Below, piece after piece: positions 1 to 17,474 of a stretch of DNA of 32,911 bases. A program made the translations under genes and the position numbers. The DNA comes from a virus. The stretch lies in IMG/VR virus record IMGVR_UViG_3300032287_001412, positions 1 through 32,911 of that record. The stretch is one strand, 5' to 3'. Within the stretch, counting starts at the first letter, position 1. Each line of letters starts with the position of its first letter. The notes beneath the pieces were generated by a model. It did not search any database, was not told the DNA's origin, and saw only the letters and a program-made list of their open reading frames with translations.

Positions 1-503
1 GCTTCTATGAGTTTACACATTAGACCTTCAGGATTAGTTGGTTCATATCCATCACTACCCACTACATTGTAGAATCGAAAGATAGTATAATCTTGTTTTC
101 TATGTTGTGTGCAATACTCACGTATTACATCTTCTGCCGCACGTTTACTAATACCATATGCGCTATTGCAATCTTGTGCGGCACCTGTACTTGAAAAGAT
201 AAAGTTCTTTGCTTTTATTCTGTTAATAACATTCATCGTACCATTCAAGTTAGTAATATAATATTTGATTGGTATTTGTTCACTCTCGCCTACACGAACT
301 AATGCGGCTAAGTGAATAACAGCATCGTACTCAATATCTTCCGGCATTGTAAATTGTCTATTGATATCACATCGATAGAATTCATTGAGTGGTGCTTGTG
401 GGTCAACAATATCTAGACCATGAACTTCATAGTCATTTGCTAATAGTTTACATAGATGTGAACCTATGTAACCTGAACAACCTGTGATTAAAACTTTTTT
501 CAT
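1..503 (-). CDS. NAD-dependent sugar-nucleotide epimerase/dehydratase, GalE-like (3' end outside window)
   Basis: The first 167 codons of an extended short-chain dehydrogenase/reductase are visible; the rest lies beyond base 1. The protein opens MKKVLITGCSGYIGSHL, which carries the GxxGxxG Rossmann motif. An STGAA stretch and the catalytic-type YGISK (YxxxK) motif follow, as expected for UDP-glucose 4-epimerase or a related nucleotide-sugar epimerase/dehydratase. Its ATG overlaps the stop of the upstream glycosyltransferase as TAATG, so the two are probably translated together and share a glycan or nucleotide-sugar role. The substrate cannot be read from this part. The family call is firm; GalE rather than another SDR epimerase is a guess. 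Confidence 0.85.
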   Translation of the reverse strand, partial: MKKVLITGCSGYIGSHLCKLLANDYEVHGLDIVDPQAPLNEFYRCDINRQFTMPEDIEYDAVIHLAALVRVGESEQIPIKYYITNLNGTMNVINRIKAKNFIFSSTGAAQDCNSAYGISKRAAEDVIREYCTQHRKQDYTIFRFYNVVGSDGYEPTNPEGLMCKLIE

Positions 504-1825
504 TAAAAATTAAACAGGCTTATACCTGTTTCCTCTTCTGTGGGTTCAAAACTAGGATCTTTTGTTAAGTAAGTATCATTGTCAGTATAGATAACACGAA
601 AACGATGTTTGTTTGTGTAGATGGGTAGGTAATCTTCAATTAATGTTCTACCGATACTTTCAGTAAAATCTTTATATTTTACAGTAGTTTCCTGACATAT
701 TTTAGCAGTAGTACTAGACGATTGTTTGGGTTTGAATTCGTTAAAACACTCATTCCACTTGTGAAATACTTTTGATTCTTGGTCCTGTGCGTGTTCTAAT
801 GATCCTAAATTATACCATCTTTCTGCTTGTTCAAAAACATCATATAATTCTTTTGCTTTCTCTGCCATGTTCTTTTTGTTACAGGTATAAAAGAAGTCAC
901 TGTTGAAATTATTAGTCCATCGTTGTTCTGTTAAAACTAATGTAGGCAATTGAATGTGTTGCTCGTAGAATGCCATACCGTAACTTTCTACAATGCTAGG
1001 GTTGAAAGCAATACGTGAACTTTTAATAAAATCTACTTTCTCTTGCCCAATGATACTAGCACGAACATCATACTTAACTCCCAAGTTTGCTAGACGTTCT
1101 TCAAACTTGCTTACCCCAGTGGGGCTAGTCATTACTTTAGCCGGTAACTTAATCTGTTCAATTAAGTCAATAAACAGTTCAGGATTCTTACCTTCTTCCC
1201 ACCTACCAACAAATAGTATACCTTCACGTTCACCTGTATATTCAGTCAACAAGTCTCTCTCAGAGATAGGAATGGGTAGATTATATGCACCAATGTGTGA
1301 GGCATTAAACTTACTTTGTGTACCTATAAAGACATTATCAGTTTGTAATTGCTGACGCATCATTACATTGACATTGTGTAAGAATGGATTCTTGGTGTCT
1401 TTGAAAATTTGACTCTCTAAATGCGTATAAGCGATAATTTGAACTGATTCTTCTAAACCCATTGTGCTGGCAACTTGAACAGTTTCATATGTGTTGCATA
1501 CCAACACATCATACATGTTTTCATGTAACGCCCTTGAAATTGCATTACTGAAATTCTCCATTCTGGCATAGTTGAACGTATCTTTATGCGAATATAAATT
1601 ATTATGTGCAGTGTATGCTAAAACTTTTTTTGGAGCAATTATTCTAGCGTTTAATGATTTGATGAAATTGTCTTCGGTTACTGGTTTATCAACGATAATA
1701 TCAACTTTAATGTTGTGTTGATTCATCAATTCACAAAAACTTTTTGTAAATTGCCCGATGCCACCGTGAGGTATTAATGTTTGTGAGCTTACTAAAAAGC
1801 CAATTCGTTTATCGTATGTTCTCAT
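503..1825 (-). CDS. GT-B glycosyltransferase (GT4-like) with conserved-looking C-terminal extension
   Basis: This is a 440-residue retaining-type GT-B glycosyltransferase candidate. The N-terminal lobe has the glycine-rich GGIGQFTKSF stretch. The C-terminal lobe has ILFVGRWEEGKNPELF and the GT4-like NPSIVESYGMAFYEQ segment, with glutamates in an E-x7-E arrangement. After the GT-B fold, roughly residues 365-440 form an extra tail ending in TYLTKDPSFEP and a FNF terminus. I chose the ATG at 1825, 30 bases inside the longest frame, because it overlaps the stop of the 57-residue ORF upstream as ATGA. The next gene is a GalE-like epimerase. Acceptor unknown: DNA base, virion protein or host glycan are all possible. 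Confidence 0.8.
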   Translation of the reverse strand: MRTYDKRIGFLVSSQTLIPHGGIGQFTKSFCELMNQHNIKVDIIVDKPVTEDNFIKSLNARIIAPKKVLAYTAHNNLYSHKDTFNYARMENFSNAISRALHENMYDVLVCNTYETVQVASTMGLEESVQIIAYTHLESQIFKDTKNPFLHNVNVMMRQQLQTDNVFIGTQSKFNASHIGAYNLPIPISERDLLTEYTGEREGILFVGRWEEGKNPELFIDLIEQIKLPAKVMTSPTGVSKFEERLANLGVKYDVRASIIGQEKVDFIKSSRIAFNPSIVESYGMAFYEQHIQLPTLVLTEQRWTNNFNSDFFYTCNKKNMAEKAKELYDVFEQAERWYNLGSLEHAQDQESKVFHKWNECFNEFKPKQSSSTTAKICQETTVKYKDFTESIGRTLIEDYLPIYTNKHRFRVIYTDNDTYLTKDPSFEPTEEETGISLFNF

Positions 1826-1995
1826 TTGTCTTTCACTATAGGCACATCTTGCCATTCAGTCCATTCACGCTTTTTAGTAAAACTACCGTTTGTAGTAGTT
1901 CTACTATAGTCTGTAACTTCAAGTTGTGTTCTATATTGTAACACTTTTTCAGGTCCGTCCCAACCGTTTCGGACAAGATATCTTAGTTCATACAT
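1822..1995 (-). CDS. Small conserved-looking phage protein, 57 aa
   Basis: A 57-codon frame opens MYELRYLVRNGWDGPEKVLQ and ends DVPIVKDK. It is preceded by AAGG about eight bases before the ATG, and its stop overlaps the next gene as ATGA. It fills almost exactly the space between the 74-residue ORF and the glycosyltransferase, which supports it being real. The fold looks like a short beta-rich protein with many Arg, Thr and aromatic residues. It has no membrane segment and no motif I recognise. Function unknown. Confidence 0.65.
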   Translation of the reverse strand: MYELRYLVRNGWDGPEKVLQYRTQLEVTDYSRTTTNGSFTKKREWTEWQDVPIVKDK

Positions 1996-2224: not shown

Positions 2225-2225
2225 A

Positions 2226-3340: not shown

Positions 3341-4189
3341 TTAGGTTCCCCACTCGTTTTTAAAGAGTGGTACTTGTAGTCTATCGCTGTAACGATAACC
3401 ACGATTCATTGCTTCAATCGCAACATTTTTTGCATTCATATTGTATATACTCTCTACACCACCACATGGCATAAAATATACTGGACCTCTGAATCCTCTA
3501 GCACGAAATTGTGTGACTGCCTCATCAGCCTCGAGTGCATCTTCTTTTGTAGCAATAACAAACTTAAGATATACAAAGCCTACACTTTCATATTGATGAA
3601 TGATATCAGGACAAATTGCTTCTTCCCACTTCTCACCACTGATACTTAATTTAGGACTTACACTAAATGTAAGTGCATTCTTTTCTCTGTTAATCTTCCA
3701 TTTTTGTAGATATATTTTAAACTCTTGGCTTAGTTCTTGTGTGCCATTAGTTTCAAATGTAATCTCTTTCAACGCTCTCATTTTCTCGTTTGAAAGTAAG
3801 TCTGGATATGCTCTTTGCCAGCCAAGAAGAGGTTCTCCACCAGTGATAACAAGATGCTCATCCATCCAGCGATTGTGAGGAAGCATATCCATAATGCTGT
3901 CAACAATACCATCGGTACTGACAACAGGACTAAGATGCTTAAACCTAGGGTCCCAAGATGCATAAGAATCACATCCCGTGCTGACAAGCGGTAAGGATTT
4001 ATAATCTGTATAATCTTCTGCTTTAATTGCGATAACATCTCTCTCACTACTTAATTCCCCTTTATTCATGCCGAACCCACCGCATGTAAAATTACATCCA
4101 TAAGTGCGTAGAAACACAGACGGTACGCCCATGTATCTACCTTCACCTTGAATGCTGTAAAATAACTCTGATACTTTTAAATGATTCAT
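3341..4189 (-). CDS. queE: 7-carboxy-7-deazaguanine synthase-like radical SAM enzyme with insertion in the cluster motif
   Basis: A QueE-type radical SAM protein of 282 residues. In the preQ0 pathway QueE converts 6-carboxytetrahydropterin to 7-carboxy-7-deazaguanine using SAM and a 4Fe-4S cluster. Seen: the N-terminal FYSIQGEGRYMGVPSVFLR signature (10-28) and TGGEPLLGW, the usual GGEP motif. The cluster motif is odd. Cys32 and Cys36 have CX3C spacing, but position 39 is Phe where the third Cys should be; the next candidate is Cys73 in TGCDSY, followed by Asp as in the canonical CD pair. The protein is longer than a minimal QueE (about 220), largely because of this insertion. The start overlaps the 68-residue ORF as ATGA and metK follows directly. 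Confidence 0.85.
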   Translation of the reverse strand: MNHLKVSELFYSIQGEGRYMGVPSVFLRTYGCNFTCGGFGMNKGELSSERDVIAIKAEDYTDYKSLPLVSTGCDSYASWDPRFKHLSPVVSTDGIVDSIMDMLPHNRWMDEHLVITGGEPLLGWQRAYPDLLSNEKMRALKEITFETNGTQELSQEFKIYLQKWKINREKNALTFSVSPKLSISGEKWEEAICPDIIHQYESVGFVYLKFVIATKEDALEADEAVTQFRARGFRGPVYFMPCGGVESIYNMNAKNVAIEAMNRGYRYSDRLQVPLFKNEWGT

Positions 4190-5464: not shown

Positions 5465-5655
5465 TACCAATGATGTAAAGTGTTTGCTATGATAAAACAA
5501 CATGTTATCACATGTAGTACTACCCAGAAAGTTTTTAGGAACAATGCGACCTTAGCTTCTCTTAATGTAAGAATGGGTACATCAGGCCGATCATCATCTG
5601 TATTACCCATCAGATGACCGGTAGCTCTAGCCCAAATTTTTTCTAAACTATTCAT
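5464..5655 (-). CDS. Small single-pass membrane protein, 63 aa
   Basis: The protein opens MNSLEKIWARATGHLMGN, has an acidic TDDDRPDVP loop, and ends in one hydrophobic helix of about 20 residues (FLKTFWVVLHVITCCFII) with a short HHW tail. The 20 or so N-terminal residues plus loop would be cytoplasmic if the positive-inside rule applies. The start at 5655 was preferred over a longer frame because it overlaps the preceding gene's stop (ATGAATAG), and the stop overlaps the radical SAM start as TAATG. I do not know the family. A role at the inner membrane during infection is possible. Confidence 0.7.
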   Translation of the reverse strand: MNSLEKIWARATGHLMGNTDDDRPDVPILTLREAKVALFLKTFWVVLHVITCCFIIANTLHHW

Positions 5656-6972: not shown

Positions 6973-6982
6973 AGTTTTCTCC

Positions 6983-7618
6983 TTAAAATTTATTTGATGC
7001 TAATACGATTTGACAAATATGTTCTAATCGTTCGATGTGTTCAAAAGCACGCCACGGACTTGTATCAATAGCTACAACTCCGTGCCCTTTGATGCCCACA
7101 ATGTCATAAGAAATGTTACCCTCGTTGTCTAACTTGAGATTCTCATGGCAACGATCAGCAAGTTCTTGGCTGATAGGCGCTACATCTCCTACGTTAGGTG
7201 CCACTTTAGTGTAACGGCTGAGTTCTGGAAAGTCATTAGCAAGGCTACTTAACTCAATACCACGATGCATTGCCGCAACACAGTAAGTGGGATGTAAGTG
7301 AACTACCACACGAACATCGTTTTTATGTTGACCCATCATCTTTTGTAGACCAAAGTGTAATGGTAGTTCACCGCTAGGTCTAAGATTTTTACTGATATCA
7401 GTATAAGGTAAATCTACATGACTCCATCTATCAATGGGCTGATGCATTATACCAATCTTTTTAAACTGGTCAGGTTGCATTGTCTGTTTACGCACACCAC
7501 TAGGGGTAATGTAAAAATGGTCACGGTCGTGATGACGAATACTTACATTACCATCACGACTGGTAATCCAGTTGCGTCTATACGCTTCGACTAATGTATC
7601 GCAAATTGTTTCTAACAT
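6983..7618 (-). CDS. Class II aldolase/adducin family protein
   Basis: A 211-residue zinc-dependent class II aldolase-type protein, close to the usual length for L-fuculose-phosphate aldolase relatives. Visible ligands and catalytic residues are Glu84 in SGELPLH, His107 and His109 in VVHLHPT, and His179 in IKGHGVV, with DGNVSIR near residue 22 forming the phosphate-binding region. Family members cleave or epimerise sugar phosphates, or act as dehydratases. The substrate cannot be told from sequence. Because nearby genes concern sugar nucleotides and pterins, a role in building a sugar or modified base is possible. The gene begins two bases after the stop of a 30-residue membrane ORF. Confidence 0.88.
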   Translation of the reverse strand: MLETICDTLVEAYRRNWITSRDGNVSIRHHDRDHFYITPSGVRKQTMQPDQFKKIGIMHQPIDRWSHVDLPYTDISKNLRPSGELPLHFGLQKMMGQHKNDVRVVVHLHPTYCVAAMHRGIELSSLANDFPELSRYTKVAPNVGDVAPISQELADRCHENLKLDNEGNISYDIVGIKGHGVVAIDTSPWRAFEHIERLEHICQIVLASNKF

Positions 7619-7620
7619 GG

Positions 7621-7713
7621 TTATCCTTTGTCCTTATACGTATCCCATAATACTATTCCTATTACAGCTACTATAACTATTACAGCAATAATTTCATTAG
7701 TAATCACACTCAT
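7621..7713 (-). CDS. Membrane micropeptide, 30 aa
   Basis: A 30-codon frame, MSVITNEIIAVIVIVAVIGI then VLWDTYKDKG, consisting of one hydrophobic helix of about 19 residues and a short charged tail. Its ATG overlaps the stop of the 58-residue ORF as ATGA and it ends two bases before the aldolase ATG, so it fits the operon without waste. Too short for any homology claim. Function unknown, probably an inner-membrane peptide. Confidence 0.55.
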   Translation of the reverse strand: MSVITNEIIAVIVIVAVIGIVLWDTYKDKG

Positions 7714-7886
7714 GCTCCTTGATAATAGTTTAGTTCATCTTCTTCGGTAAGCTCCGGAGTATTCCAAACATTACGATTGTTCCATTCACGAATACGATCC
7801 AATCGTTCCTGTTCCGTTAGTTCATAGCATCTAGGGTTACGATCCGGCTGTCGAAGTGCCTCAACCCCTCTTTCGAATAAAGACAT
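7710..7886 (-). CDS. Small soluble protein, 58 aa
   Basis: A 58-codon frame reads MSLFERGVEALRQPDRNPRC at the start and LTEEDELNYYQGA at the end. It is charged, mostly helical and without membrane segments. It starts at a TAATG overlap with queD and ends with an ATGA overlap into the 30-residue membrane ORF; coupled junctions at both ends are the main evidence that it is translated. The ELTEQERLDRIREWNNRN stretch looks like a short helical hairpin. No family recognised. Confidence 0.6.
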   Translation of the reverse strand: MSLFERGVEALRQPDRNPRCYELTEQERLDRIREWNNRNVWNTPELTEEDELNYYQGA

Positions 7887-8368
7887 TATGCAAACTCTCT
7901 GTCTTCCCTATGACCACCACGACCTGCCATATTACTATCAGTCTCACGGACCTCTACTCTACAGCACCATACACGCTTTGCTTCTTCACTACCACAGTTG
8001 GGCAAGAAGATTGTGTTGATGTATTCATATAAAAAGTCAGCAATACCTTCACAACCAGTACGTTCTACTTCTGTAATCTTTGCTAGTTTAAGCTCACCCA
8101 AACGCAATAATTCGTCACGCATAGGGTCATCTTGTGCGACTAATAATGTATGATCGAACCATTCTTCTAGTTTATCTTTAAGTGGACGCAATCCACCAAA
8201 GTCAGTTACCCAGTTACGTGCGTCTAGTGTGTCAGCTTCAAATTCAAAGTGAAAACTCATAGCATAACCATGAATTAAGTTACAATGACTGTCAGCACGC
8301 CATTGACGATATGCGACAGGACCTATTTGTCTGTATGTTTTTGTTGAAAAGAATTTTTTGTTTGCCAT
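7886..8368 (-). CDS. queD: 6-carboxytetrahydropterin synthase-like protein (QueD/PTPS family) with altered zinc site
   Basis: A PTPS/QueD-family T-fold protein of 160 residues (E. coli QueD is about 120). QueD converts dihydroneopterin triphosphate, the FolE product, to 6-carboxytetrahydropterin, the QueE substrate. Seen: the catalytic Cys in the CxxxHG motif (Cys29, His33), the Asp-His pair FDHTLL (Asp72, His73), TDFGGL before the helix, and Glu142 in VEVRET for pterin binding. The second His of the HGH zinc motif is Tyr35, and there is no obvious upstream zinc His; His28 next to the Cys could substitute. It has its own sigma70-like promoter. folE and queE nearby support the pathway assignment. 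Confidence 0.85.
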   Translation of the reverse strand: MANKKFFSTKTYRQIGPVAYRQWRADSHCNLIHGYAMSFHFEFEADTLDARNWVTDFGGLRPLKDKLEEWFDHTLLVAQDDPMRDELLRLGELKLAKITEVERTGCEGIADFLYEYINTIFLPNCGSEEAKRVWCCRVEVRETDSNMAGRGGHREDREFA

Positions 8369-8385
8369 GATTTCTCCTATGTTGT

Positions 8386-8414
8386 ATTATAGCATAGGCA
8401 GCAGAATTTGTAAA
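8386..8414 (-). promoter_or_regulatory. Sigma70-type promoter for queD operon
   Basis: On the minus strand a TTTACA -35 box (8414-8409) and a perfect TATAAT -10 box (8391-8386) are separated by 17 bases. TG sits one base before the -10, making an extended -10 (TGCTATAAT). Transcription would start near 8379, about 11 bases before the queD ATG, leaving just enough room for the AGGAG ribosome site. Confidence 0.8.
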
Positions 8415-8438
8415 GCGGGATGATGTCCGAAGACCGCT
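8414..8438 (-). other. Short stem-loop with UUCG tetraloop after the cytidylyltransferase gene
   Basis: On the minus-strand RNA, GUC-UUCG-GAC forms a C(UUCG)G tetraloop hairpin nested inside AGCG/CGCU. It sits between the stop of the cytidylyltransferase gene and the queD -35 box. There is no long U-run, so it may be a weak terminator or a 3'-end stabiliser rather than a classical intrinsic terminator. Confidence 0.3.
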
Positions 8439-8442
8439 ATAG

Positions 8443-8916
8443 TTATTTATTAAGAACGTTAATAATCTGGGCATCAGCTACCCGTTTCCTTAAACTTGAA
8501 CTACTAAAACTATGGTCACGACCATTAAAGACAATTTCAATATTTCTATCAAAACATTCATCTCTACCCGAAAAATCTTTATCAGCATATTCAACACCTA
8601 AAATACGAACATCTACGGGAAGAATAAGCAACAAGTCTCGCAAGTCTTGTTCGGTTTGATATACAACCACTTCATCAACATAACGGCAAGCTGATAATTG
8701 AATCTGTCGTTCTACGATACTTTGAACTGGTTTATTTTTAGTATCAGGTCTATCAATAGTAGGATCAGTTTGTAATCCTGCAATTAAGTAATCACAGTGA
8801 TTCTTTGCTTCACTTAACATAGCAATATGCCCTGCGTGTAGCATATCAAATGTGCTGAAGGTGATACCAATCTTCTTACCTTCTTGTTTAAGTTTCTTAA
8901 TATGATTGAAAATCAT
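8443..8916 (-). CDS. Cytidylyl/adenylyltransferase-family nucleotidyltransferase (HxGH)
   Basis: A 157-residue single-domain nucleotidyltransferase of the RfaE C-domain/TagD type. Seen: STFDMLHAGH, the HxGH nucleotide-binding motif near the N terminus, and SSSSLRKRV near the C terminus, matching the SSTxxR-like phosphate motif. Such enzymes join CTP or ATP to a sugar-phosphate or polyol-phosphate. I chose the ATG at 8916 over one six codons upstream because it overlaps the previous stop as ATGA. A second HxGH enzyme fused to a cupin lies at 12403-13158. Together with the glycosyltransferases this suggests an activated-sugar route, but the substrate is unknown. Confidence 0.82.
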   Translation of the reverse strand: MIFNHIKKLKQEGKKIGITFSTFDMLHAGHIAMLSEAKNHCDYLIAGLQTDPTIDRPDTKNKPVQSIVERQIQLSACRYVDEVVVYQTEQDLRDLLLILPVDVRILGVEYADKDFSGRDECFDRNIEIVFNGRDHSFSSSSLRKRVADAQIINVLNK

Positions 8917-9149
8917 TTTGAAAGAGTTCTCCACATTTTCTTTTGTTCATTCTCTTTTAAGAATTCATCCTCACCTACAAATGTAGGGCTATCAGCCATG
9001 ATCTCATCCAACAACCATTTTAGTTTATGTAAATCTTGTTTGATTCCCCATTGAACATATCCGTCATTGTATGGACTGTGAAGTTCTACTCCTGCTAGAT
9101 AGATTTGATGATGTACTGAATTATAATCCATTGGTTTACTAAATCCCAT
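8913..9149 (-). CDS. Small phage protein, 78 aa
   Basis: A soluble 78-residue protein starting MGFSKPMDYNSVHHQIYLAG, with a YVQWGIKQDLHKLKWLLDEIM amphipathic helix and a charged C terminus ending WRTLSK. The start at 9149 overlaps the stop of the 41-residue micropeptide as TAATG, which favours it over the longer frame. The stop overlaps the cytidylyltransferase start as ATGA. No recognised family. Confidence 0.65.
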   Translation of the reverse strand: MGFSKPMDYNSVHHQIYLAGVELHSPYNDGYVQWGIKQDLHKLKWLLDEIMADSPTFVGEDEFLKENEQKKMWRTLSK

Positions 9150-9274
9150 TATTTGCTCCCACATGTACAGTTGCGACCTTGATTGCAATCACCAGTGCAA
9201 CTACTTTTTGGTAATAATCTAACAATTGTAATTGCAACAGCAATCACTACAGCTAAAATAATAATTATAGTCAT
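9149..9274 (-). CDS. Membrane-anchored Cys-rich micropeptide, 41 aa
   Basis: The peptide is one N-terminal hydrophobic helix (MTIIIILAVVIAVAITIV) followed by a short tail with four cysteines (residues 26, 30, 36 and 38) in a CTGDCNQGRNCTC arrangement. The start overlaps the folE stop as ATGA and the stop overlaps the next start as TAATG, so it lies in a fully coupled chain. Similar CxGxCxQGRxCxC tails occur in small proteins of other phages as far as I recall, but I know of no function. The tail could bind a metal or form disulfides if exported. Confidence 0.65.
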   Translation of the reverse strand: MTIIIILAVVIAVAITIVRLLPKSSCTGDCNQGRNCTCGSK

Positions 9275-9951
9275 TTGCAACCTTTATTAGCAATTTGCAA
9301 GAACTCTTGTCTAGCCGCTGGATCCGTTTTGAATCCACCACCTAAGCGACATGTAACTGTGCTAGAACCAGTATCTTCTACACCACGTGATTTAACACAA
9401 TAGTGCTGTGCATCAATCATAACTGCTACATCTTCTGTTTCAAGAATGAACTGTAAGGTGTGGAAAATTTGCTCTGTTAACCTCTCTTGGATTTGAGGCC
9501 TTTTGCTAAAATATTCTACGATACGGTTTATCTTACTAAGCCCTAACACTCTTTGTTTAGGGACATAAGCTACAGTAGCCAATCCATCAATTACTACAAA
9601 ATGATGTTCGCAGTTAGATTGAACATTAACATTACGCTCTACAACCATTTCGTTGTATTGCATCTTGTTGTCAACTGTTGTACATTTAGGGAATGCTTCA
9701 TAATCTAATCCCCAAAAGATTTCGTTTACATACATCTTAGCAACACGCTTTGGTGTTTCCATTAATGAATCATCATCTAGGTCAAGACCCAATGTTAGCA
9801 TGATGTTTGTAAAAGCATTTTCGATGATTTCGATTTTAGCTTTGCGGTCAATACTGTTATTGACTGTAGGAGTTTCAACTCCCATTTTAACTAAATGTTC
9901 GTGTACTTTTTGACCCAATTCTGGATCTGTTTTTGTCTTATTGTAACTCAT
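9271..9951 (-). CDS. folE: GTP cyclohydrolase I
   Basis: A FolE-type GTP cyclohydrolase I of 226 residues, the usual length. It converts GTP to 7,8-dihydroneopterin triphosphate, the first step of both folate and 7-deazaguanine synthesis. The zinc site is intact: NCEHHF (Cys114, His116/117) and QHYCVKSRGVEDTGS (His183, Cys185). SKINRIVEYFSKRPQIQERL carries the substrate-binding region. I chose the ATG at 9951 because a strong GGAGGG ribosome site precedes it; the longer frame has none. Upstream lies a GATAAATA late-type box. With queD, queE and dpdA in the same run, the product probably feeds modified-base synthesis. Confidence 0.95.
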   Translation of the reverse strand: MSYNKTKTDPELGQKVHEHLVKMGVETPTVNNSIDRKAKIEIIENAFTNIMLTLGLDLDDDSLMETPKRVAKMYVNEIFWGLDYEAFPKCTTVDNKMQYNEMVVERNVNVQSNCEHHFVVIDGLATVAYVPKQRVLGLSKINRIVEYFSKRPQIQERLTEQIFHTLQFILETEDVAVMIDAQHYCVKSRGVEDTGSSTVTCRLGGGFKTDPAARQEFLQIANKGCK

Positions 9952-10010
9952 AGATAACCCTCCGTTGTGAGTGTTTTGTTTTGACATTCGCTACCGTTGT
10001 GTAGCATACT

Positions 10011-10018
10011 TATTTATC
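10011..10018 (-). promoter_or_regulatory. T4-type late promoter box GATAAATA upstream of folE
   Basis: GATAAATA on the minus strand, 60 bases before the folE ATG. It matches the NATAAATA late-promoter consensus of T4-like phages and is the same octamer found before four other genes here. The 83-base gap around it (9952-10034) holds nothing else I can identify. Confidence 0.5.
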
Positions 10019-10034
10019 TTTACTAATTGCCTGT

Positions 10035-10520
10035 TTAAGAAAAAGGCCATGCCGCATTTGGGTCTAATGGTGGACGTTCTTTTAACTCAACATTCTCAGT
10101 GATTATAACACCGTTGTCACTAGCATATGCAACACTAAAGGGCGCCAAGACTATGACATAATCATCTTCAATTTGCCAATCATGTTCACCATCAAACAAC
10201 CAAGATGCACCACCTTCGTAGTACAACTCTTTGATTTCTTGTTGTTCTAATTCTGGAATATCGTCTGAGAATTCCCAATCTATACTGATAGAATCATCAA
10301 ACTCACAGCCCCAACCTGCATCTGTTTTACAATAAGCAGAGTTGTCACCTTTCCATGGAAGGTTGCAATCAAGGTCTTCTTCAATAAAACCTTGACCCCA
10401 ACGATATAGTTCTTCCATATTAAACCAACTGATAGATCCGTCACTATTCTCACGGAACATTTCTACCCGCCAGCTAATACTTTTCTTTTCTAATGGTTTA
10501 ATACAGTAAACATTTGCCAT
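10035..10520 (-). CDS. Acidic hypothetical phage protein, 161 aa
   Basis: A strongly acidic soluble protein starting MANVYCIKPLEKKSISWRVE. It is rich in Trp, Asp and Glu and ends in a proline-rich ERPPLDPNAAWPFS tail. Strand-like segments alternate with acidic loops. It could mimic nucleic acid charge, but no motif supports that. It lies two bases after a small basic protein and before the folE promoter. No family recognised. Confidence 0.7.
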   Translation of the reverse strand: MANVYCIKPLEKKSISWRVEMFRENSDGSISWFNMEELYRWGQGFIEEDLDCNLPWKGDNSAYCKTDAGWGCEFDDSISIDWEFSDDIPELEQQEIKELYYEGGASWLFDGEHDWQIEDDYVIVLAPFSVAYASDNGVIITENVELKERPPLDPNAAWPFS

Positions 10521-10522
10521 TT

Positions 10523-10693
10523 TTAATCCTTAGATTTTCTACCAGAAGTCTTGGCTCGCATACCTTCTTTGTATATTTCAGCCCAACTACGAATAAAGCT
10601 ACCACGTTGATGGTCGTCTAAGATAGTAGCCGCTCTGCGTTTTACTTCTTTAGGGACTTTAACTGCCCTGCTGTCATATCCTCTGCAGGTCAT
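10523..10693 (-). CDS. Small basic protein, 56 aa
   Basis: A 56-codon frame, MTCRGYDSRAVKVPKEVKRR to KTSGRKSKD, very rich in Arg and Lys with a helical centre (AATILDDHQRGSFIRSWAEI). It fits tightly between the histone-like ORF (ends 10697) and the acidic protein (starts 10520), and no other frame fills this space. The charge suggests nucleic acid binding, which is inference. Confidence 0.6.
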   Translation of the reverse strand: MTCRGYDSRAVKVPKEVKRRAATILDDHQRGSFIRSWAEIYKEGMRAKTSGRKSKD

Positions 10694-10696
10694 ATA

Positions 10697-10891
10697 TTAA
10701 GCCTTTGCTTTTGCTTCAGCACGTGCGGCTTTTTCTGCTGTAATTTCATTACGGCGAGCCTTAACTGCTTTTGCTAATTCTGCTAATGCTTTACGGGCAC
10801 GTGTACCTGCGGCCGCATTGCCTTTGTTAAATTTATCGTTCTCAGCATTGTATGCTGCCAAACTTGTTTCAATATCGTTATGTGCGCTCAT
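10697..10891 (-). CDS. Histone H1/Hc1-like small basic protein
   Basis: A 64-residue, Ala/Lys-rich helical protein. The AYNAENDKFNKGNAAAGTR and RKALAELAKAVKARRNEI segments resemble the Hc1-type bacterial histone H1-like family, which binds and compacts DNA. The tail is an alternating Ala/Lys/Glu helix, AARAEAKAKA. Its start overlaps the preceding gene, which itself ends in a histone-like tail, as ATGA. The family call rests on my recall of the Hc1 pattern and should be tested by profile search. Confidence 0.65.
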   Translation of the reverse strand: MSAHNDIETSLAAYNAENDKFNKGNAAAGTRARKALAELAKAVKARRNEITAEKAARAEAKAKA

Positions 10892-11205
10892 TTGTTTTCC
10901 TTTGTTTTACGTTTAGTTTTAGGTTCTGCAACCTTTTTTGCTACAGTCTTAGCTTTTGGTTTAGCTTCAACAGTAGCAGTAGCCTTTTTAGGGGCTGCCT
11001 TCTTTTTAGCTGGTTTGACATCTACACCAACAGGAAGAACACTTTCTGCTTTTAGACAAGCGGCTCGAACTTCGCTGACCAATGCGTCCCAATCCCATTC
11101 TAATTCTACCTTACCATTTGGATGGGTAGTCACAGTTAAGTGATTACCCTTTACTACCTTGGGCTCAAGTGATTCTTTTGCTTTTTTAATTAAACTGGTT
11201 ACCAT
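10888..11205 (-). CDS. Phage protein with Lys/Ala/Pro-rich histone-like tail, 105 aa
   Basis: It has two parts. Residues 1-62 form a small folded region with HLTVTTHPNGKVELEWDWDA and a helix VSEVRAACLKAES. Residues 63-105 are a low-complexity tail with KPAKKKAAPKKATATVEAKP-like repeats, typical of H1-type linker histones. The tail would bind DNA without sequence preference. It is coupled by ATGA to the Hc1-like gene, so the pair probably acts together on the phage or host nucleoid. No function is known for the N-terminal part. Confidence 0.7.
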   Translation of the reverse strand: MVTSLIKKAKESLEPKVVKGNHLTVTTHPNGKVELEWDWDALVSEVRAACLKAESVLPVGVDVKPAKKKAAPKKATATVEAKPKAKTVAKKVAEPKTKRKTKENK

Positions 11206-11206
11206 T

Positions 11207-12406
11207 TTAATATTTGCTTTCTCTAGTGTATTTGCGATAATCTTTATCCATACGCAACCATTGTTGTCCCTTACCTTCTAAGATATCACAGATTCTATCA
11301 ATCGTTCCATCAGTCCAATCACTGATTTTACCTTGATTCATATGCGGCTGATGTAACATATTATACAACTTAATAGCGGCATCTTCAACAGACCAGGGCG
11401 TATACAATCTTGTGTAGTCATTTGCAAACGTTTCTGGGAAACTGCGATACGCCGGATATAATACATTGCAACCCAATGCATCTGCTTCACTAACTGTATT
11501 ACTTACCCAGTCTTGCAAAGCACAGTTAAACAATATTCTAGTATCATTTAACAAACCGTAATATGCATTCTTATCTAGGTCTTCGTATACTTTTAATAAA
11601 CCGCGACTTTGAAAATCTTTAGTGCGTTGCATGTAACTGTCATTATTACTTTTTAAAGCACTACCACTGAACACACAGAATTCTACGTTTCGGGGTACAC
11701 CATGACGATCTACTAATCCATATCGGTCAAAGAATTCTTCAATCACATCCATGTAGAAGTCTGGTTGCTTTTCTTGATCCCAACGTGCTGAAAATGCAAT
11801 ACGCATCTTACGCTCATCGAATGGCTTGATGACATTACCTACACGACTACGAACTTCTTCTTTACCAAACGCTAGACCACTAATATTATAGATAGGAGCT
11901 TTCCAACCCGCAATCTTCATGTGCATTACCATTTCTTCATTTGAAGCAAGTACACCATCAGCAAAACTATCAACCATCTTCTCGTAGTGACCCATGAATT
12001 CACTCATACCCCATACGTGTACAAAGTCATCAGGGTCAATACTTTGTGCTAGACAGCGAACAAAAATCTTAGGACGACTTGTGATCGGAACCTGTTTCAT
12101 AATGTAGGGTAATGACTCAATGCCGGGCTGAAACATATCTTCAAAGTATACGATATCACCTGCACCAACTAGTCCTTGCTTCATCATCTTAACAAGATTC
12201 ATTAGTTGACTCATACCAAAGTATGTGCGACCATGTGCGTCTAGTACTTGACCTGTAACAATAGATTGGTCATTATTTAATGTTTCACCGGGCACGATAA
12301 CATAGTTAATGCCACGTTGTTTAAAAACACGCTCATTCCACTCTTGCAATTGTAGAGTGTATCGTGCTTTGTATGGTTCCAAGCCCATGTAATATAATGT
12401 TTTCAT
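11207..12406 (-). CDS. GT-B glycosyltransferase, phage type
   Basis: A 399-residue protein with GT-B features. The C-terminal half carries IAFSARWDQEKQPDFYMDV, which resembles the nucleotide-sugar lobe opening of GT4 enzymes, and an SNTVSEADALGCNVLYPAY stretch that matches the donor-binding Glu region. It has no signal peptide or membrane segment, so it acts in the cytoplasm. It starts at an ATGA overlap with the cytidylyltransferase-cupin gene, suggesting it uses a sugar activated by that protein. The target could be modified DNA, a virion protein or a surface glycan. Confidence 0.75.
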   Translation of the reverse strand: MKTLYYMGLEPYKARYTLQLQEWNERVFKQRGINYVIVPGETLNNDQSIVTGQVLDAHGRTYFGMSQLMNLVKMMKQGLVGAGDIVYFEDMFQPGIESLPYIMKQVPITSRPKIFVRCLAQSIDPDDFVHVWGMSEFMGHYEKMVDSFADGVLASNEEMVMHMKIAGWKAPIYNISGLAFGKEEVRSRVGNVIKPFDERKMRIAFSARWDQEKQPDFYMDVIEEFFDRYGLVDRHGVPRNVEFCVFSGSALKSNNDSYMQRTKDFQSRGLLKVYEDLDKNAYYGLLNDTRILFNCALQDWVSNTVSEADALGCNVLYPAYRSFPETFANDYTRLYTPWSVEDAAIKLYNMLHQPHMNQGKISDWTDGTIDRICDILEGKGQQWLRMDKDYRKYTRESKY

Positions 12407-13158
12407 TCTTTTCTTTCAATATCTTCTTCTACACAAAGTGAACCATATTGAATCTCTACAATACGACAAATTTCACTGTATGGATTACTTAATTGATGCC
12501 AGTCACCTACTGGAATTTTATATGAATTATGTTTAGTTAGTGTTTGTGTTGGTAATGAATACCCATTAGACATCATAGAATGGACATCACACTTGCCCTC
12601 ACTTACTAACCAGTATTCGCTTCTGTTATTATGTTTTTGCATACTCAATGATTTACCCGGATCAATAGTTAATTCTTTTACTTTACAACCTTCTACATCA
12701 TGTAGTATACGATAATATCCCCATTGACGCAATGTTTTCGGTTGTTTCCATTCACGTAGTATCCAACTACTACTGTTCATTTTGTTTTCACCACCTACAG
12801 CAAAGACAAATTCCACATCATCAAACACCATTTCTGGTATGTTTTCTTTTGTTCTGTCGCCACCATTTGCGAAAATAATATGTGCATCTGGGTACATCAT
12901 TTTTACATTGCGAATAGCTTCAACGCTAGAACCATCATTATCATCATAGATAACACAATGATCTACCATTTTTAAATTCTCAATGATTGACATGCGTTCA
13001 GTAATCGGCATAAAAGGTTGGCCCTTCTTGCGAGCCAACCATGCATCACTATTCAACCCGACGATTAATTTATCGCCTAGTTTTTTTGCAGCCTTGAAGT
13101 ATTCAATGTGACCGCTATGTAATGGATCAAATCCACCAGTGACTAATACTATTTTCAT
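12403..13158 (-). CDS. Cytidylyltransferase-cupin fusion (RfaE/TagD domain plus sugar-phosphate isomerase-type cupin)
   Basis: A 251-residue two-domain protein. Residues 1-135 form an HxGH nucleotidyltransferase (TGGFDPLHSGH at 7-17, ITERMSII). Residues about 145-251 form a cupin of the mannose-6-phosphate isomerase type II/GDP-mannose pyrophosphorylase C-domain kind: WGYYRILHD, KELTIDPGKSLSMQKHNNRS, a WHQLSNP segment and a GSLCVEEDIER end. This would couple activation and isomerisation of a sugar phosphate. I chose the ATG at 13158 because of the ATGA overlap with the upstream gene; a longer frame exists. The pairing of these two domain types is unusual to my knowledge. Confidence 0.85.
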   Translation of the reverse strand: MKIVLVTGGFDPLHSGHIEYFKAAKKLGDKLIVGLNSDAWLARKKGQPFMPITERMSIIENLKMVDHCVIYDDNDGSSVEAIRNVKMMYPDAHIIFANGGDRTKENIPEMVFDDVEFVFAVGGENKMNSSSWILREWKQPKTLRQWGYYRILHDVEGCKVKELTIDPGKSLSMQKHNNRSEYWLVSEGKCDVHSMMSNGYSLPTQTLTKHNSYKIPVGDWHQLSNPYSEICRIVEIQYGSLCVEEDIERKE

Positions 13159-13361
13159 GGACGTGCGTGTTCCACCCATTGATTTTTTGCAGGCTTACCT
13201 GACATGCATTTTGCAAATTGACGGAACACATAACTACGTTGGTCGTAGAGGTCTGCTTCGTTATACTTATAACCATAATCTTGACAGAATTCAAGATACT
13301 TTTCCAAGTCCTCAAAGATTTGTTGAACACGTGGATTAGATTGATATTGTTGTTTTGCCAT
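13155..13361 (-). CDS. Small phage protein, 68 aa
   Basis: A 68-residue helical protein, MAKQQYQSNPRVQQIFEDLE to NQWVEHARP, with a YNEADLYDQRSYVFRQFAK segment. Proteins of this pattern are common in T4-like phages, without an established role as far as I know. The start at 13361 was chosen over an upstream one because an AAGGA ribosome site precedes it. The stop overlaps the cytidylyltransferase-cupin start as ATGA. Confidence 0.7.
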   Translation of the reverse strand: MAKQQYQSNPRVQQIFEDLEKYLEFCQDYGYKYNEADLYDQRSYVFRQFAKCMSGKPAKNQWVEHARP

Positions 13362-13374
13362 TTTATTAATTCCT

Positions 13375-13827
13375 TTAAATAGCGAGTTGTTGATAAGGTC
13401 TTGTTGTATTGTAATAAATCGTTGCACCGTTCTCATTATCTTCTGAGACAGTGATTTCAATATTACGATCGGGATAGCGAGTAGCGATTTGCTCATAGAG
13501 GTCATCACTAATCATTTCACATGACTTATAATTCAATTCAAGTGTTCCGCCTTTATAGAGATTCTCTAACCAGCGTTTAAATTGAATGAATTCAATATCC
13601 CTGTCATTGTGAAATACTTCAATCGCCACGTTAAAGTGAAAGATATGACGATGTGGAGTTCCTAAAAAGCTAACATCATACTCATCACCTGTTTTAAGTG
13701 CTGGGTCTGTTGCTGCCGCTGGGTACATATGAATACCCTCTTTTTGAAATGTTACAAAAATCATACGCTTGGCATGATGTTTGATTTCATTGCGTTTCAT
13801 TTGTAATGCTTGATCTCTTTGTTCCAT
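13375..13827 (-). CDS. Possible divergent T-fold (PTPS/QueD-like) phage protein, 150 aa
   Basis: The order of segments resembles the PTPS fold: HRHIFHFNVAIEVFH in the place of the HGH strand, RDIEFIQFKRWLENLY in the place of the DFxxLK helix, KSCEMISDDLYEQIATRYPD in the place of the PTxExLA helix, and IEITVSEDNENGATIYY in the place of the final VxET strand. The catalytic Cys of the CxxxHG motif is absent, so it is probably not an ordinary QueD. This is a pattern judgement only; the protein could be an unrelated conserved phage protein. It is coupled to the 73-residue ORF as TAATG. Confidence 0.45.
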   Translation of the reverse strand: MEQRDQALQMKRNEIKHHAKRMIFVTFQKEGIHMYPAAATDPALKTGDEYDVSFLGTPHRHIFHFNVAIEVFHNDRDIEFIQFKRWLENLYKGGTLELNYKSCEMISDDLYEQIATRYPDRNIEITVSEDNENGATIYYNTTRPYQQLAI

Positions 13828-14048
13828 TAGTAAGTCCTATTTAATGTAGCCCATGTTAACCACTGATGAAATGTATTATACACTATTTCAGCTTCTTTGT
13901 CATCCTGATTTACCCGTTTACCACGTACATAAAACCCATCTTTTGCTACACGTAGCATTTCATCTGAACCACCTCTAAATGAAATAGTAGATTCTTCGGT
14001 TTCAGCAGTTAGTGTCGATTTAATAGATAGTGATGAATTACTGTTCAT
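13827..14048 (-). CDS. Small phage protein, 73 aa
   Basis: A 73-residue protein with a Ser/Thr-rich start (MNSNSSLSIKSTLTAETEES) and a compact centre, MLRVAKDGFYVRGKRVNQDD, then a helix EAEIVYNTFHQWLTWATL. This pattern recurs in large phages without assigned function as far as I recall. Its start overlaps the SGNH-like gene stop as ATGA, and its stop overlaps the next start as TAATG. Confidence 0.7.
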   Translation of the reverse strand: MNSNSSLSIKSTLTAETEESTISFRGGSDEMLRVAKDGFYVRGKRVNQDDKEAEIVYNTFHQWLTWATLNRTY

Positions 14049-14884
14049 TTAAAAAATCCTGTACTTTCTAAGTGTGGTAATAAAATATTATTTAACCAAA
14101 CCATATGCCCATGTGCGTTTGGGTGAGGGTCAACTATTCCTCTAAAATATTGCAAATCTTCCACTTCAATTGATTTTAAATATCCATGTATAGATTTTGT
14201 TGTAACTAAATTTGATCTATCTAATAATTCATATAGATGTTTGCACTGATTATTACTTTTGTGAGATTCTATACAATCGTTAACACCATCCATATAATAT
14301 TGTTCATATAATTTAATATTGTGAACTTTACATATAGATTGTAACATAATCATGTTCTCTAATGAAAGTATTATGGACTCCTCTATACCATCACAAAACA
14401 TCAGATATTCTTTAAAGAAAGGAATTTCATCATGCCATCCACCGGTTATATACCAACCACCGTTTTGATTATATGGAATACAATGATCGGTATTCACCTC
14501 ACCTACACATGCAATACTATCACCTGAATTCTCTAAATCACCAAACTGCAATTGATATAATAATCTATCTTGTTTAGTCCAATGCTCTACTATTCGTTCA
14601 ATGGTATCTTTATTATTGATTAACCAACTACGTCTGTCATGTCCCGACCACATTACAAACACACAAATTTCTTCAGGCTTATACCCTTCACTCAATGCTT
14701 TATGTATAGCATGAACCGTTTTCTTTTGTATAAGTTGATTACCTTGGCTACTTAATCCCCTGTGGTCAAACACTAATTCAGGATTAATTCTTTTTAGATT
14801 TCGTTCTAATAAATTTACCCATGTGAATGGAGTAGAGGGGTCGCTAAAACTACACCCACATGTTATAATTTTCTTATACTTCAT
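14045..14884 (-). CDS. SGNH/GDSL-like hydrolase-fold protein
   Basis: A 279-residue protein with the blocks of the SGNH fold: GCSFSDPSTP (candidate nucleophile Ser12), SSQGNQL (block II Gly48, Asn49), FVMWSGHDRRSW near residue 78 (block III region), and VDPHPNAHGH near the end with Asp252 and His254 completing the usual triad. No signal peptide, so cytoplasmic or virion-associated. Family members are esterases, acetyl-transfer or deacetylating enzymes on glycans. The gene is richer in A/T than its neighbours, like the radical SAM gene. Substrate unknown. Confidence 0.65.
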   Translation of the reverse strand: MKYKKIITCGCSFSDPSTPFTWVNLLERNLKRINPELVFDHRGLSSQGNQLIQKKTVHAIHKALSEGYKPEEICVFVMWSGHDRRSWLINNKDTIERIVEHWTKQDRLLYQLQFGDLENSGDSIACVGEVNTDHCIPYNQNGGWYITGGWHDEIPFFKEYLMFCDGIEESIILSLENMIMLQSICKVHNIKLYEQYYMDGVNDCIESHKSNNQCKHLYELLDRSNLVTTKSIHGYLKSIEVEDLQYFRGIVDPHPNAHGHMVWLNNILLPHLESTGFFK

Positions 14885-15096
14885 TAATGATCGTCACTAA
14901 GGTCTACTGAATTGTGGTCATTATCCCATTGGGCACGAATCATCATTCTAAGTTCTTTGTTATATTTGTCTTTAGTTTCTTTTAAATCAGATATCTTTTT
15001 AGTATCAGTAGAACCATTCTTTTCTAAATTAAAGATTTGGTTATCTAATAATCTAACTGATTCTTCTAGTGTCTTAATACGACTTCTATATGGCAT
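14884..15096 (-). CDS. Coiled-coil protein, 70 aa
   Basis: A 70-residue protein, MPYRSRIKTLEESVRLLDNQ to NSVDLSDDH. Two charged helices with heptad-like hydrophobic spacing suggest a short coiled coil, followed by an acidic tail. It starts one base after the dpdA stop and overlaps the SGNH-like start as TAATG. No family or function recognised. Confidence 0.65.
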   Translation of the reverse strand: MPYRSRIKTLEESVRLLDNQIFNLEKNGSTDTKKISDLKETKDKYNKELRMMIRAQWDNDHNSVDLSDDH

Positions 15097-15097
15097 A

Positions 15098-16651
15098 TCA
15101 TTCTCCTAATACTTTTGCGATTTCGTCATCACTATCTTCAATGACTTCATCAACTTCTGGTTCATCTGTATTTACTTCAAATAATTGATCAAACATTGTC
15201 ATAGCATTAACTGTACGCTTACCACTGATACCTTGACTACCCGATTGAAATTGCATCCAGTAGCTACGATGATAATCAATCAAGTCAATAGATTCTTGTT
15301 TAGTTTTCTTACTAAAAATTTCATCAACTAAGTCACCAAAGAACTTACTACCTTCAAACTTATGAATAAGCATCTTGGGTACAATACCTGTTTCATATTG
15401 ACGATTAGCCTCTTGAACTGCATTCATATGCATCCAAACATTATGACTTTGAATTAATGTATAACTCAATGTGTCCCAGCTAGTTTTAGTTTCTTTACCA
15501 TGTTGTCCTAAGAATCCATGACCCCTATAACACATATCCTTAAGTACTAGTTTATCAGTAACTGGACTATCTGTAAAGAGTTTATGGATACCCTCTGACA
15601 ATACGGCATCACGGTACTTACGATTATCTATTGCATAATCTTTCTTTTCAGCGGTCTTTTCCATACTGTATGACCATTTCTTATTATGTTCAATGTTAGT
15701 ATTGAAATATGCTAAACCTTTAGCCGCACTATAGAATGGGCTTGCACAGTCAAAAGTAATTTGTAGTTTAGGGTTGTGATACTTGCGAATAGCTTTCTGA
15801 ATGTCAGTAAACAATACAGCATACTCTAAGATACTTGTACCCAAACAGTGAATCAAATCATGTTTACCTTCTACCAACAACCCATCATGTATAATATCAA
15901 CCATGCGTGTTAACATCAAGTGTACATCAATCTTATTCTGACCACCGAACGCCCAGCCATTAAAATGATTATCTGGATATATATTTGGGTCACAATACTT
16001 CTTCATTTCATTATACCAGTCTTCGGACTGACCATGATTACGACCTTGAAGTACATTTAAGAACTTGCATTTACCATTACGATTCTTAATAAAGTATTCA
16101 TTATTGATATGAGTAGCAGTAATAGCTTCTTCAATAGTACTGATACCATGCAGGCTATTACCATTCTTATCTTTCATACCGAACGTTGTTAATGACTGTG
16201 ACGGGATATCTAAACACATGCCATAGTCCATGTATGTGTCCATCCAGTTCAATACAGCTTTACGCTTTACCATAGCACGTGGGCAGTTAGGATCTTTCCA
16301 GTCTGCTGGCCATTGACCTTTAAGAATCTGAAATCCACCAGAGTCACCTAACATAAACGTACCTTCTTCACGTTCTCTAATGATTGATTCACTAGGATCG
16401 TCTTTAGTAGTATCTAAGTTAGCGTGACCAGCACTGTACAATCCCCATTTATAATAATAGAGACCTTCTTTGCTATTTAAGAAATTTAGTTTCTCAACAT
16501 CACCATTGAATTGTGCAGGGATTCGTGCTTTATCAAAGTACTCTTCACCTTTACGTTGCTTACCCAAGCCAGCAATATAAAAACTACTGACTGCAGGTAA
16601 GAACAATGCCCATTCAGGGTTTTGTTTTGCTGATAGATTATCTTGTTCCAT
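15098..16651 (-). CDS. dpdA: DpdA-like tRNA-guanine transglycosylase-family DNA base exchange enzyme
   Basis: A 517-residue TGT-superfamily protein. DpdA relatives exchange guanine in DNA for a 7-deazaguanine. Seen in family order: GDSGGFQ (Asp103, general acid/base position), CLDIPSQ (Asp148, base recognition), NVLQGRNHG (199-206), GWAFGGQ (232-238), HCLGTS (268-273) and TFDCASPF (Asp301, the nucleophile position). The C-terminal zinc motif of TGT (CxCxxC plus His) is reduced to one Cys and the His of SHNVW. No PUA RNA-binding domain is evident. The presence of folE, queD and queE in the same run argues for DNA rather than tRNA modification. Specificity is inferred from context. Confidence 0.87.
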   Translation of the reverse strand: MEQDNLSAKQNPEWALFLPAVSSFYIAGLGKQRKGEEYFDKARIPAQFNGDVEKLNFLNSKEGLYYYKWGLYSAGHANLDTTKDDPSESIIREREEGTFMLGDSGGFQILKGQWPADWKDPNCPRAMVKRKAVLNWMDTYMDYGMCLDIPSQSLTTFGMKDKNGNSLHGISTIEEAITATHINNEYFIKNRNGKCKFLNVLQGRNHGQSEDWYNEMKKYCDPNIYPDNHFNGWAFGGQNKIDVHLMLTRMVDIIHDGLLVEGKHDLIHCLGTSILEYAVLFTDIQKAIRKYHNPKLQITFDCASPFYSAAKGLAYFNTNIEHNKKWSYSMEKTAEKKDYAIDNRKYRDAVLSEGIHKLFTDSPVTDKLVLKDMCYRGHGFLGQHGKETKTSWDTLSYTLIQSHNVWMHMNAVQEANRQYETGIVPKMLIHKFEGSKFFGDLVDEIFSKKTKQESIDLIDYHRSYWMQFQSGSQGISGKRTVNAMTMFDQLFEVNTDEPEVDEVIEDSDDEIAKVLGE

Positions 16652-16664
16652 TAAACTTTTACTT

Positions 16665-17393
16665 TTATTTTGAGTTAGCTGGGAGTCTATAGCAATATGT
16701 AGCTAAGCCACTGTCAACTACAATCTCAGTTGCACCTGCATCACTGATACGAACAATTTTGTCCCCGACTAGATCCATGATACCAATGAATTGTTTTACG
16801 GGCCAGTACCAGCCTTTAGCCAATGCACCACCTACATCTGAATGAAACACAAAGCTACCACTGTGTGTTGATGGGTCACCGAAATAGAATTTCAAGTCAT
16901 TACCGTCAGTTTTAGCAACGAAATGTTCTTCTTCGCTATTAGCTTGTGCTTGTTTCTTTAGTCGCATAATACCAGCAACAGTAGGCTCAAAGCTAACGTT
17001 CCACGGGGGAGTTTTAAAGCCAACTGATTTAATTTTTTCTTCAACAACAGTTTTGTACATCAAACGATAGTCGTTGATAAAGTCACCTGTCTTTGTTTCA
17101 AAGTGAATTGCACCGGGAACATCTTCACCGTCACGTTGTGTTTTAGAAACATTGATTTTAGCATGTTCGTCATACTCATCAAAGCCAACGATTGTTTTTA
17201 GTTTACCTAAGTTAGGCATACCAAACACACCGATGAAATCGTGAATAGGATGTTTAAATGATCCGCTAAGGATAAGAGATTTATCTTCTGCGATAGCATT
17301 GATTTGTGTCTCTGTGGCAGTACCTGTGATTTTAATCAAATCGATACCAAGACCATGTGTATGGTCAATTAAGTCTTTAAGATAGTCTTTCAT
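16665..17393 (-). CDS. DNA polymerase sliding clamp, gp45-like
   Basis: A 242-residue protein matching T4 gp45 in length (228) and pattern: an N-terminal strand-rich half (ITGTATETQINAIAEDKSLI), the FIGVFGMPNLGKLKTIVGFD stretch equivalent to the gp45 inter-strand region, and a C-terminal half with DLKFYFGDPS. In T4 the trimer tethers polymerase gp43 and also activates late promoters. It lies directly downstream of polB under a perfect sigma70 promoter. The GATAAATA boxes elsewhere fit a clamp-driven late programme. Pattern recognition and position support the call; sequence similarity to T4 is low. Confidence 0.85.
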   Translation of the reverse strand: MKDYLKDLIDHTHGLGIDLIKITGTATETQINAIAEDKSLILSGSFKHPIHDFIGVFGMPNLGKLKTIVGFDEYDEHAKINVSKTQRDGEDVPGAIHFETKTGDFINDYRLMYKTVVEEKIKSVGFKTPPWNVSFEPTVAGIMRLKKQAQANSEEEHFVAKTDGNDLKFYFGDPSTHSGSFVFHSDVGGALAKGWYWPVKQFIGIMDLVGDKIVRISDAGATEIVVDSGLATYCYRLPANSK

Positions 17394-17437
17394 GTTTTTC
17401 CTTTATGTATAGTACTATTTAGGTAGTTATGTTGTGT

Positions 17438-17466
17438 ATTATAATGGCATTTATTGCGAATGTCAA
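17438..17466 (-). promoter_or_regulatory. Consensus sigma70 promoter upstream of sliding clamp
   Basis: TTGACA (17466-17461) and TATAAT (17443-17438) on the minus strand with exactly 17 bases between them: a perfect match to the host vegetative consensus. The start point would be near 17431, leaving about 38 bases of leader with an AAAGGA ribosome site before the clamp ATG at 17393. It is the likely entry point for the long minus-strand unit containing dpdA, folE and the rest. Confidence 0.88.
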
Positions 17467-17474
17467 TAAGCAAT

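Follow-up and report, generated by a model that had tools for sequence, protein, structure and literature searches.

A phage glycosyltransferase similar to QTMAN may add a sugar to 7-deazaguanines in DNA

Glycosylated cytosines are well known in phage DNA, where they block restriction and CRISPR. Here we ask whether a sugar could likewise be placed on a 7-deazaguanine, a question raised by a 32,911-base IMG/VR virus record that was analysed at its full length (the window) and is probably a fragment of the genome of an uncultured aquatic phage. No nucleotide similarity to phage records was found for its bases 1-20000. A preliminary description, made from the sequence, had named a cytidylyltransferase-cupin fusion, two GT-B glycosyltransferases, a second cytidylyltransferase, an aldolase and an epimerase, and had proposed that the sugar might end up on a modified base. 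All of these neighbours were found, interspersed with FolE, QueD, QueE and a DpdA-like gene (Table 1); GT-503 is present as described, its end lying at 1855 and not at 1825. In the open-licence literature searched, we found no report of a glycosylated deazaguanine in phage or other DNA, and the novelty of the proposal is provisional.

Table 1. Positions of the genes discussed in the window.
Feature	Position	Strand	Remarks
GalE-like nucleotide-sugar epimerase	3..503	minus	truncated by window end
GT-503, second GT-B/GT4-like glycosyltransferase	503..1855	minus	
QueE	3341..4189	minus	
Class II aldolase/epimerase family protein	6983..7618	minus	
QueD	7886..8368	minus	
Second HldE/TagD-like nucleotidyltransferase	8443..8934	minus	
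FolE (GTP cyclohydrolase I)	9271..9987	minus	
GT-11207, GT4-type GT-B glycosyltransferase, predicted deazaguanine glycosyltransferase	11207..12406	minus	fold, QTMAN profile comparison, context
NT-cupin fusion	12403..13158	minus	HldE/TagD-like nucleotidyltransferase (N) + type II phosphomannose-isomerase cupin (C)
Small conserved ORF	13155..13361	minus	between QueD-like gene and fusion
QueD-like paralogue (phrog_17812)	13375..13827	minus	
DpdA-like DNA-guanine transglycosylase candidate	15098..16651	minus	

FolE, QueD and QueE of the preQ0-type 7-deazaguanine pathway are all present in the window. In this it resembles the phage DpdA/DpdA2 systems, whose replication module likewise contains FolE, QueD and QueE together with a transglycosylase of DpdA type (Hutinet 2019, PMC6884629), but it differs from them in having a QueD-like paralogue and a glycosyltransferase instead of a recognisable QueC. 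The PP-loop gene of the window (20495-21091) is TilS-like, and since the window is a 33 kb fragment, QueC could be encoded outside it. The PP-loop protein is short and matches the N-terminal TilS domain only (TIGR02432, above cut-off), and a gene of this type is a conserved feature of many relatives, lying upstream of their DNA polymerase. The motifs D103-SGGFQ and F300-D301-C302 of the DpdA candidate are invariant among 11 sequences, and we take their aspartates to be catalytic, as in TGT. The candidate has a weak profile link to DpdA2 (hhalign probability 55-72%) and no PDB sequence match. The QueD-like protein shares a C-terminal motif with QueD (SCEMIsDDLY...SEDgEN and GCEgIADfLY...ETdsN, respectively; hhalign 74%), and its family is a candidate for the step that replaces QueC. 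Two other genes are unusual for a phage replication region, a TctC-like periplasmic binding protein (23892-24854) and a Bax-inhibitor-1-like membrane protein (6283-6972), both assigned by reading the sequence only.

The enzyme that could connect a sugar with the base is GT-11207. Pfam, PHROGs and NCBIfam gave it no name, and no usable match came from searching PDB sequences with the profiles of GT-11207, the QueD-like protein and DpdA. Its structural model (mean pLDDT 71) has a GT-B fold that matches GT4 enzymes with Z of about 21 over at least 320 residues, several GT4s reaching this value and none being clearly best. The catalytic motif of GT4 enzymes is present (R208, K213, D299-x7-E307), the homologues in phages ACP17, X1 and PA5oct have E-x7-E at the corresponding place, and an N-terminal E-P...RYT...W pattern of the GT-11207 family persists to 22% identity.

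A profile was built from collected bacterial members of the QTMAN family, and 87 other ORFs of GT4 loci in the same genomes served as controls. This profile gave the phage GT-11207 family a median score of 37.8 bits, with 32.7 for the member in the window, and the controls at most 29.3; in the reverse comparison, the GT-11207-family profile matched QTMAN with 39.7 bits and the controls with at most 27.6. The hhalign score of QTMAN and the GT-11207 family was 120 over 303 columns, as against 53 and 45 for two GT-503 control pairs. The HMMER match between the two families is the donor half. A search that finds bacterial positives did not detect QTMAN_N (PF12038) in the window at E <= 0.001, from which it appears that the acceptor half of GT-11207 has diverged. 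As judged from these profiles, GT-11207 is clearly closest to bacterial QTMAN homologues among the GT4 enzymes tested. QTMAN puts mannose on queuosine, a 7-deazaguanine, in tRNA (PMC12518689). GT-11207 and QTMAN (the PF12038 family, human GTDC1) are thus both GT4 enzymes of GT-B type and best reciprocal profile matches among the GT4s tested, and a 7-deazaguanine, which QTMAN accepts as nucleoside, is also the predicted acceptor of GT-11207; they differ in the QTMAN_N domain and in that GT-11207 is grouped with DpdA and not with tRNA Q genes, no cyclopentenediol-forming genes being identified. With the alpha- and beta-glucosyltransferases of T4 and the arabinosyltransferase of RB69, GT-11207 shares the GT-B fold, its origin in a phage and, by prediction, the transfer of a sugar onto DNA bases, but their acceptor is 5-hydroxymethylcytosine and that predicted for GT-11207 is a deazaguanine.

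Searches with GT-11207 found at least 558 viral relatives. The top-scoring ones were examined, as was a second set that started from Synechococcus phage BUCT-ZZ01, and associations were counted in the 168 loci with at least 5 kb of upstream flank. DpdA is near the transferase in all 168 (in 167 of them no more than 6 kb upstream, in the remaining one about 3 kb downstream) and a QueD-like gene lies within 4 kb of it in 167. QueE is a usual companion, and QueC was found in none of the 168 and in none of 193 transferase loci overall. These loci mostly belong to one syntenic lineage and include some duplicate contigs; they are therefore not 168 independent cases, and the isolates weigh more.

Among cultured phages, DpdA, the QueD-like gene and the transferase recur in altered order in five lineages (BUCT-ZZ01, ACP17, X1, PA5oct/Paride and Phosso), three of which have DpdA2 and two the type of the window; DpdA2 is the type described in phage nt-1 (PMC6884629). 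The cluster of BUCT-ZZ01 reads QueE, phosphoribosyltransferase, QueD, FolE, GT-503 homologue (36% identity), DpdA2, QueD-like gene and GT-11207 homologue (63% identity). The order is DpdA2-transferase-QueD-like-QueE in Acidovorax phage ACP17, transferase-DpdA2-QueD-like-QueE in Xanthomonas phage X1, and window-type DpdA, transferase and QueD-like gene in Pseudomonas phage PA5oct. In Sinorhizobium phage Phosso, the QueD-like gene and the transferase adjoin each other and have DNA polymerase, clamp, FolE and QueE as neighbours; DpdA is separated from them by 170 kb. Compared with the BUCT-ZZ01 transferase, those of ACP17, X1 and PA5oct have an identity of only 22-24%, and this divergence together with the differing gene order argues that more than shared synteny lies behind the partnership. 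When these three transferases were used to scan for viral relatives, no hit other than ACP17 itself appeared.

Whole-genome searches of eight isolates divided them by QueC. BUCT-ZZ01, ACP17, X1 and PA5oct have the transferase and the QueD-like gene, whereas pf16, Ps15, nt-1 and 1.081.O lack both and have QueC; Phosso sides with the first set. No QueC above the Pfam cut-off was found in the complete genomes of BUCT-ZZ01, ACP17, X1, PA5oct and Phosso, X1 having one sub-threshold match. The isolates had been picked by their DpdA, transferase and QueD-like matches, so this split is a pattern and not the outcome of random sampling. It points to the base of the phages with transferase and QueD-like gene being made without preQ0 synthesis by QueC, although a host QueC could help. 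The QueD-like family, whose function is given as unknown in PHROGs, also occurs in Cellulophaga phage phiST, Rhizobium phage RHph_I1_18 and Vibrio phage Bakedbeans, there without QueC and without the transferase. Xanthomonas phage PhiXhv-12 was considered as a bearer of the transferase without deazaguanine genes, but a GATase-QueC gene adjoins its transferase and the case stays ambiguous. This transferase is more distant and QTMAN-like, and its place beside GATase-QueC, with no QueD-like gene, counts against the model. The transferase, the GATase-QueC fusion and a PIG-L de-N-acetylase stand side by side (6735-9966) and possibly form a second, separate deazaguanine-sugar system. In Stenotrophomonas phage Ps15, a gene annotated as myo-inositol-1-phosphate synthase (4505-5755) lies within the FolE-QueC-DpdA2-QueE cluster.

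Where the sugar would come from is a separate matter, for which the preliminary description had pointed to the fusion together with the glycosyltransferases, the aldolase and the epimerase. That a cytidylyltransferase-type domain is joined to an isomerase-type cupin is borne out by Pfam, AlphaFold and the viral relatives, of which there are 189; the best 80 are full-length fusions, which rules out a chance join. The protein has 251 amino acids when read from 12403-13158 and 258 if an in-frame upstream ATG at 13179 is used. In the 258-residue form, CTP_transf_like covers residues 13-110 (6.5e-14) and MannoseP_isomer residues 148-257 (3.9e-19), both above cut-off; the bit scores are 52.7 for the N-domain with PF01467 (cut-off 21) and 69.4 for the C-domain with PF01050 (cut-off 23.6). 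The AlphaFold model has two folded domains (mean pLDDT 87.5), of which the first matches glycerol-3-phosphate cytidylyltransferase and HldC (1coz, 5xf2) and the second phosphomannose isomerases and the CapF cupin, each with Z of 14-17. In the alignment of relatives, H14 and H17 of the HxGH motif are invariant and G16 is conserved to more than 90%. Q174, H176, R179, E181 and H221 of the cupin are invariant in 81 sequences and are presumably the metal ligands and the catalytic arginine, as in phosphomannose isomerases. Judged by its domains, the fusion is a genuine two-domain enzyme of predicted sugar-activating function with an intact metal site.

From the two domains and the conserved isomerase residues, its architecture is analogous to that of ManC/AlgA, in which a nucleotidyltransferase is likewise followed by a cupin of the same type; the residues of both domains fit the suggested joining of sugar activation with isomerisation, an activity that is predicted. 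It differs from ManC/AlgA in that its nucleotidyltransferase belongs to the HldE/TagD superfamily, and TIGR01479 matches the cupin part only (68 bits, with a cut-off of 373 for the full-length match). HldE/HldC and TagD share the fold and the HxGH motif of the N-domain, but the fusion has no kinase domain and carries the cupin behind; the rfaE_dom_II and g3p_cytidyltrns profiles both score far under cut-off on this domain. The 3' end of the fusion gene overlaps the start of GT-11207 by 4 nt (12403-12406), which suggests coupled translation, and a second overlap of 4 nt (13155-13158) joins it to the preceding small ORF.

The best 80 of the 189 viral relatives fall into two contexts. Thirty-five share the gene order of the window, which runs from DNA polymerase and clamp through DpdA, the QueD-like gene, the small ORF and the fusion to GT-11207, with FolE, the second nucleotidyltransferase, QueD, QueE and GT-503 farther along. 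The other 45 have no deazaguanine gene in the stretch examined, and in most of them the fusion comes after UvsX and its neighbours. Full-length fusions with about 38-55% identity occur in SAR11, SAR86, Rhodobacteraceae, Marinimicrobia and candidate-phylum bacteria; in about 30 genomes of SAR11 the gene has a conserved place, with polA on one side and an MFS transporter on the other, apart from any glycan cluster, and in some of the candidate-phylum bacteria it is near other glycan genes. The notion that the fusion is dedicated to the deazaguanine base fails on the 45 viral loci and on many SAR11 and SAR86 genomes without deazaguanine genes nearby. A contig filed under Rhodobacteraceae that carries the fusion and then a GT-11207 homologue (8001-10003; 736 bits) is probably a phage contig binned with the bacterium. 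Cultured cyanophages, among them P-TIM68, S-SSM7 and S-SCSM2R, match the N-domain only; in the two records inspected, the matching gene has DNA polymerase on one side and UvsX on the other.

A survey of phages with both DpdA and the fusion had been proposed, and the two do co-occur, in 51 of the 168 transferase loci as in the 35 fusion loci. As a marker of deazaguanine phages the fusion was nevertheless rejected, for it is absent from about 70% of the transferase loci and present elsewhere without DpdA. It has entered the deazaguanine context several times and its state changes 13 times on the GT-11207 tree, which makes it an exchangeable, optional gene. The GalE-like epimerase, which stands behind GT-503 in the window, is found directly behind GT-11207 in many relatives: 66 loci have only the epimerase (directly behind), 39 only the fusion (directly in front), one has both and 27 neither. 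These raw counts look exclusive, as if the two genes were alternative sources of the donor; once the tree is taken into account the alternation is not significant, tree-aware pairs being too few, and strict alternation of the two genes was not accepted.

The strongest rival to our reading takes the fusion for a passenger that was inserted in front of GT-11207 and has no tie to the deazaguanine genes: it would be an auxiliary gene that supplies sugar nucleotides for glycans of the host or the virion, and GT-11207 would modify the base by means of a host donor. The 45 loci, mostly of the UvsX module, the solitary fusion of SAR11, the glycan neighbours in candidate phyla and the 13 changes all agree with this; against it stand the 4-nt overlap with GT-11207, the transferase directly behind the fusion in nearly all deazaguanine-context loci of the first search, and the several separate fusion lineages that stand directly before GT-11207. 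We regard the passenger role as a serious contender, if somewhat short of an even chance, and the feeding of GT-11207 by the fusion in this phage as only slightly better placed, still a tentative assignment.

Much less probable is that GT-11207, GT-503 and the fusion build a virion or surface glycan and came to lie among deazaguanine genes by chance. GT4 enzymes usually are glycan builders, and an aldolase, an epimerase and two nucleotidyltransferases are also in the window, but GT-11207 is conserved like DpdA (mean column identity 80% vs 81%) and keeps its DpdA and QueD-like partners across the rearranged genomes of isolates. We think it similarly improbable that the substrate of GT-11207 is not DNA but either a pterin that FolE and QueD produce or the queuosine of host tRNA. 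Pterin glycosylation does exist, cyanobacteria having a tetrahydrobiopterin glucosyltransferase, and such enzymes are among the fold matches of GT-11207 (5zes, 9v0l; Z of about 19); the match is unspecific, since hundreds of GT4 folds score alike. QTMAN itself works on tRNA, but neither queA nor queG was recognised among the genes of the window, which also argues against a queuosine-type hydroxyl as acceptor, and the constant company of DpdA and the usual company of QueE speak against both substrates. Least probable is a modified pyrimidine as acceptor, in the manner of T4 and RB69, with the deazaguanine genes serving a separate modification: RB69 and Thanatos phages do glycosylate cytosine using dedicated nucleotide-sugar genes (PMC6024577, PMC12838424), but the ORFs of this 33 kb fragment include no recognisable dCMP or dUMP hydroxymethylase, which speaks against glycosylation of hydroxymethylcytosine, and the transferase tracks DpdA in isolates.

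In the pathway that we favour, FolE, QueD and QueE would yield 7-carboxy-7-deazaguanine, which the QueD-like paralogue would tailor in place of QueC; DpdA would swap the resulting 7-deazaguanine for guanine in phage DNA, and the QTMAN-like GT-11207 would add a sugar to the inserted base. The fusion would be an optional feeder that helps to make the activated sugar, and in other relatives the GalE-like epimerase directly behind the transferase would act instead. We give the pathway as a whole a rough probability of 0.55, and an equally slight preference to its extension to the phage QTMAN-like family, which would glycosylate 7-deazaguanines in DNA with QueC bypassed via the QueD paralogue. Somewhat better placed is the action of GT-11207 on a deazaguanine product, which we consider probable. 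The proposal that the sugar ends up on the modified base has strong genomic support through GT-11207 (DpdA, the isolates and the QTMAN profile), though not through the fusion. We infer from this genomic evidence that the acceptor is a base in DNA, that this base is not preQ0 and that the QueD-like protein replaces QueC; the role of the fusion and the sugar that is used are likewise inferred. Candidate acceptor sites are the 7-carboxyl, a 7-amide or carbon 7; if the inserted base has no 7-substituent, the sugar could be joined to carbon 7 as a C-glycoside.

The trio of DpdA, QueD-like gene and QTMAN-like transferase is widespread in uncultured aquatic phages. Cultured phages have it as well, the Pseudomonas phages PA5oct and Paride among them, and the idea is thus open to immediate testing with phages that are available. 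If it is true, a family of tRNA-base mannosyltransferases would be linked to DNA modification.
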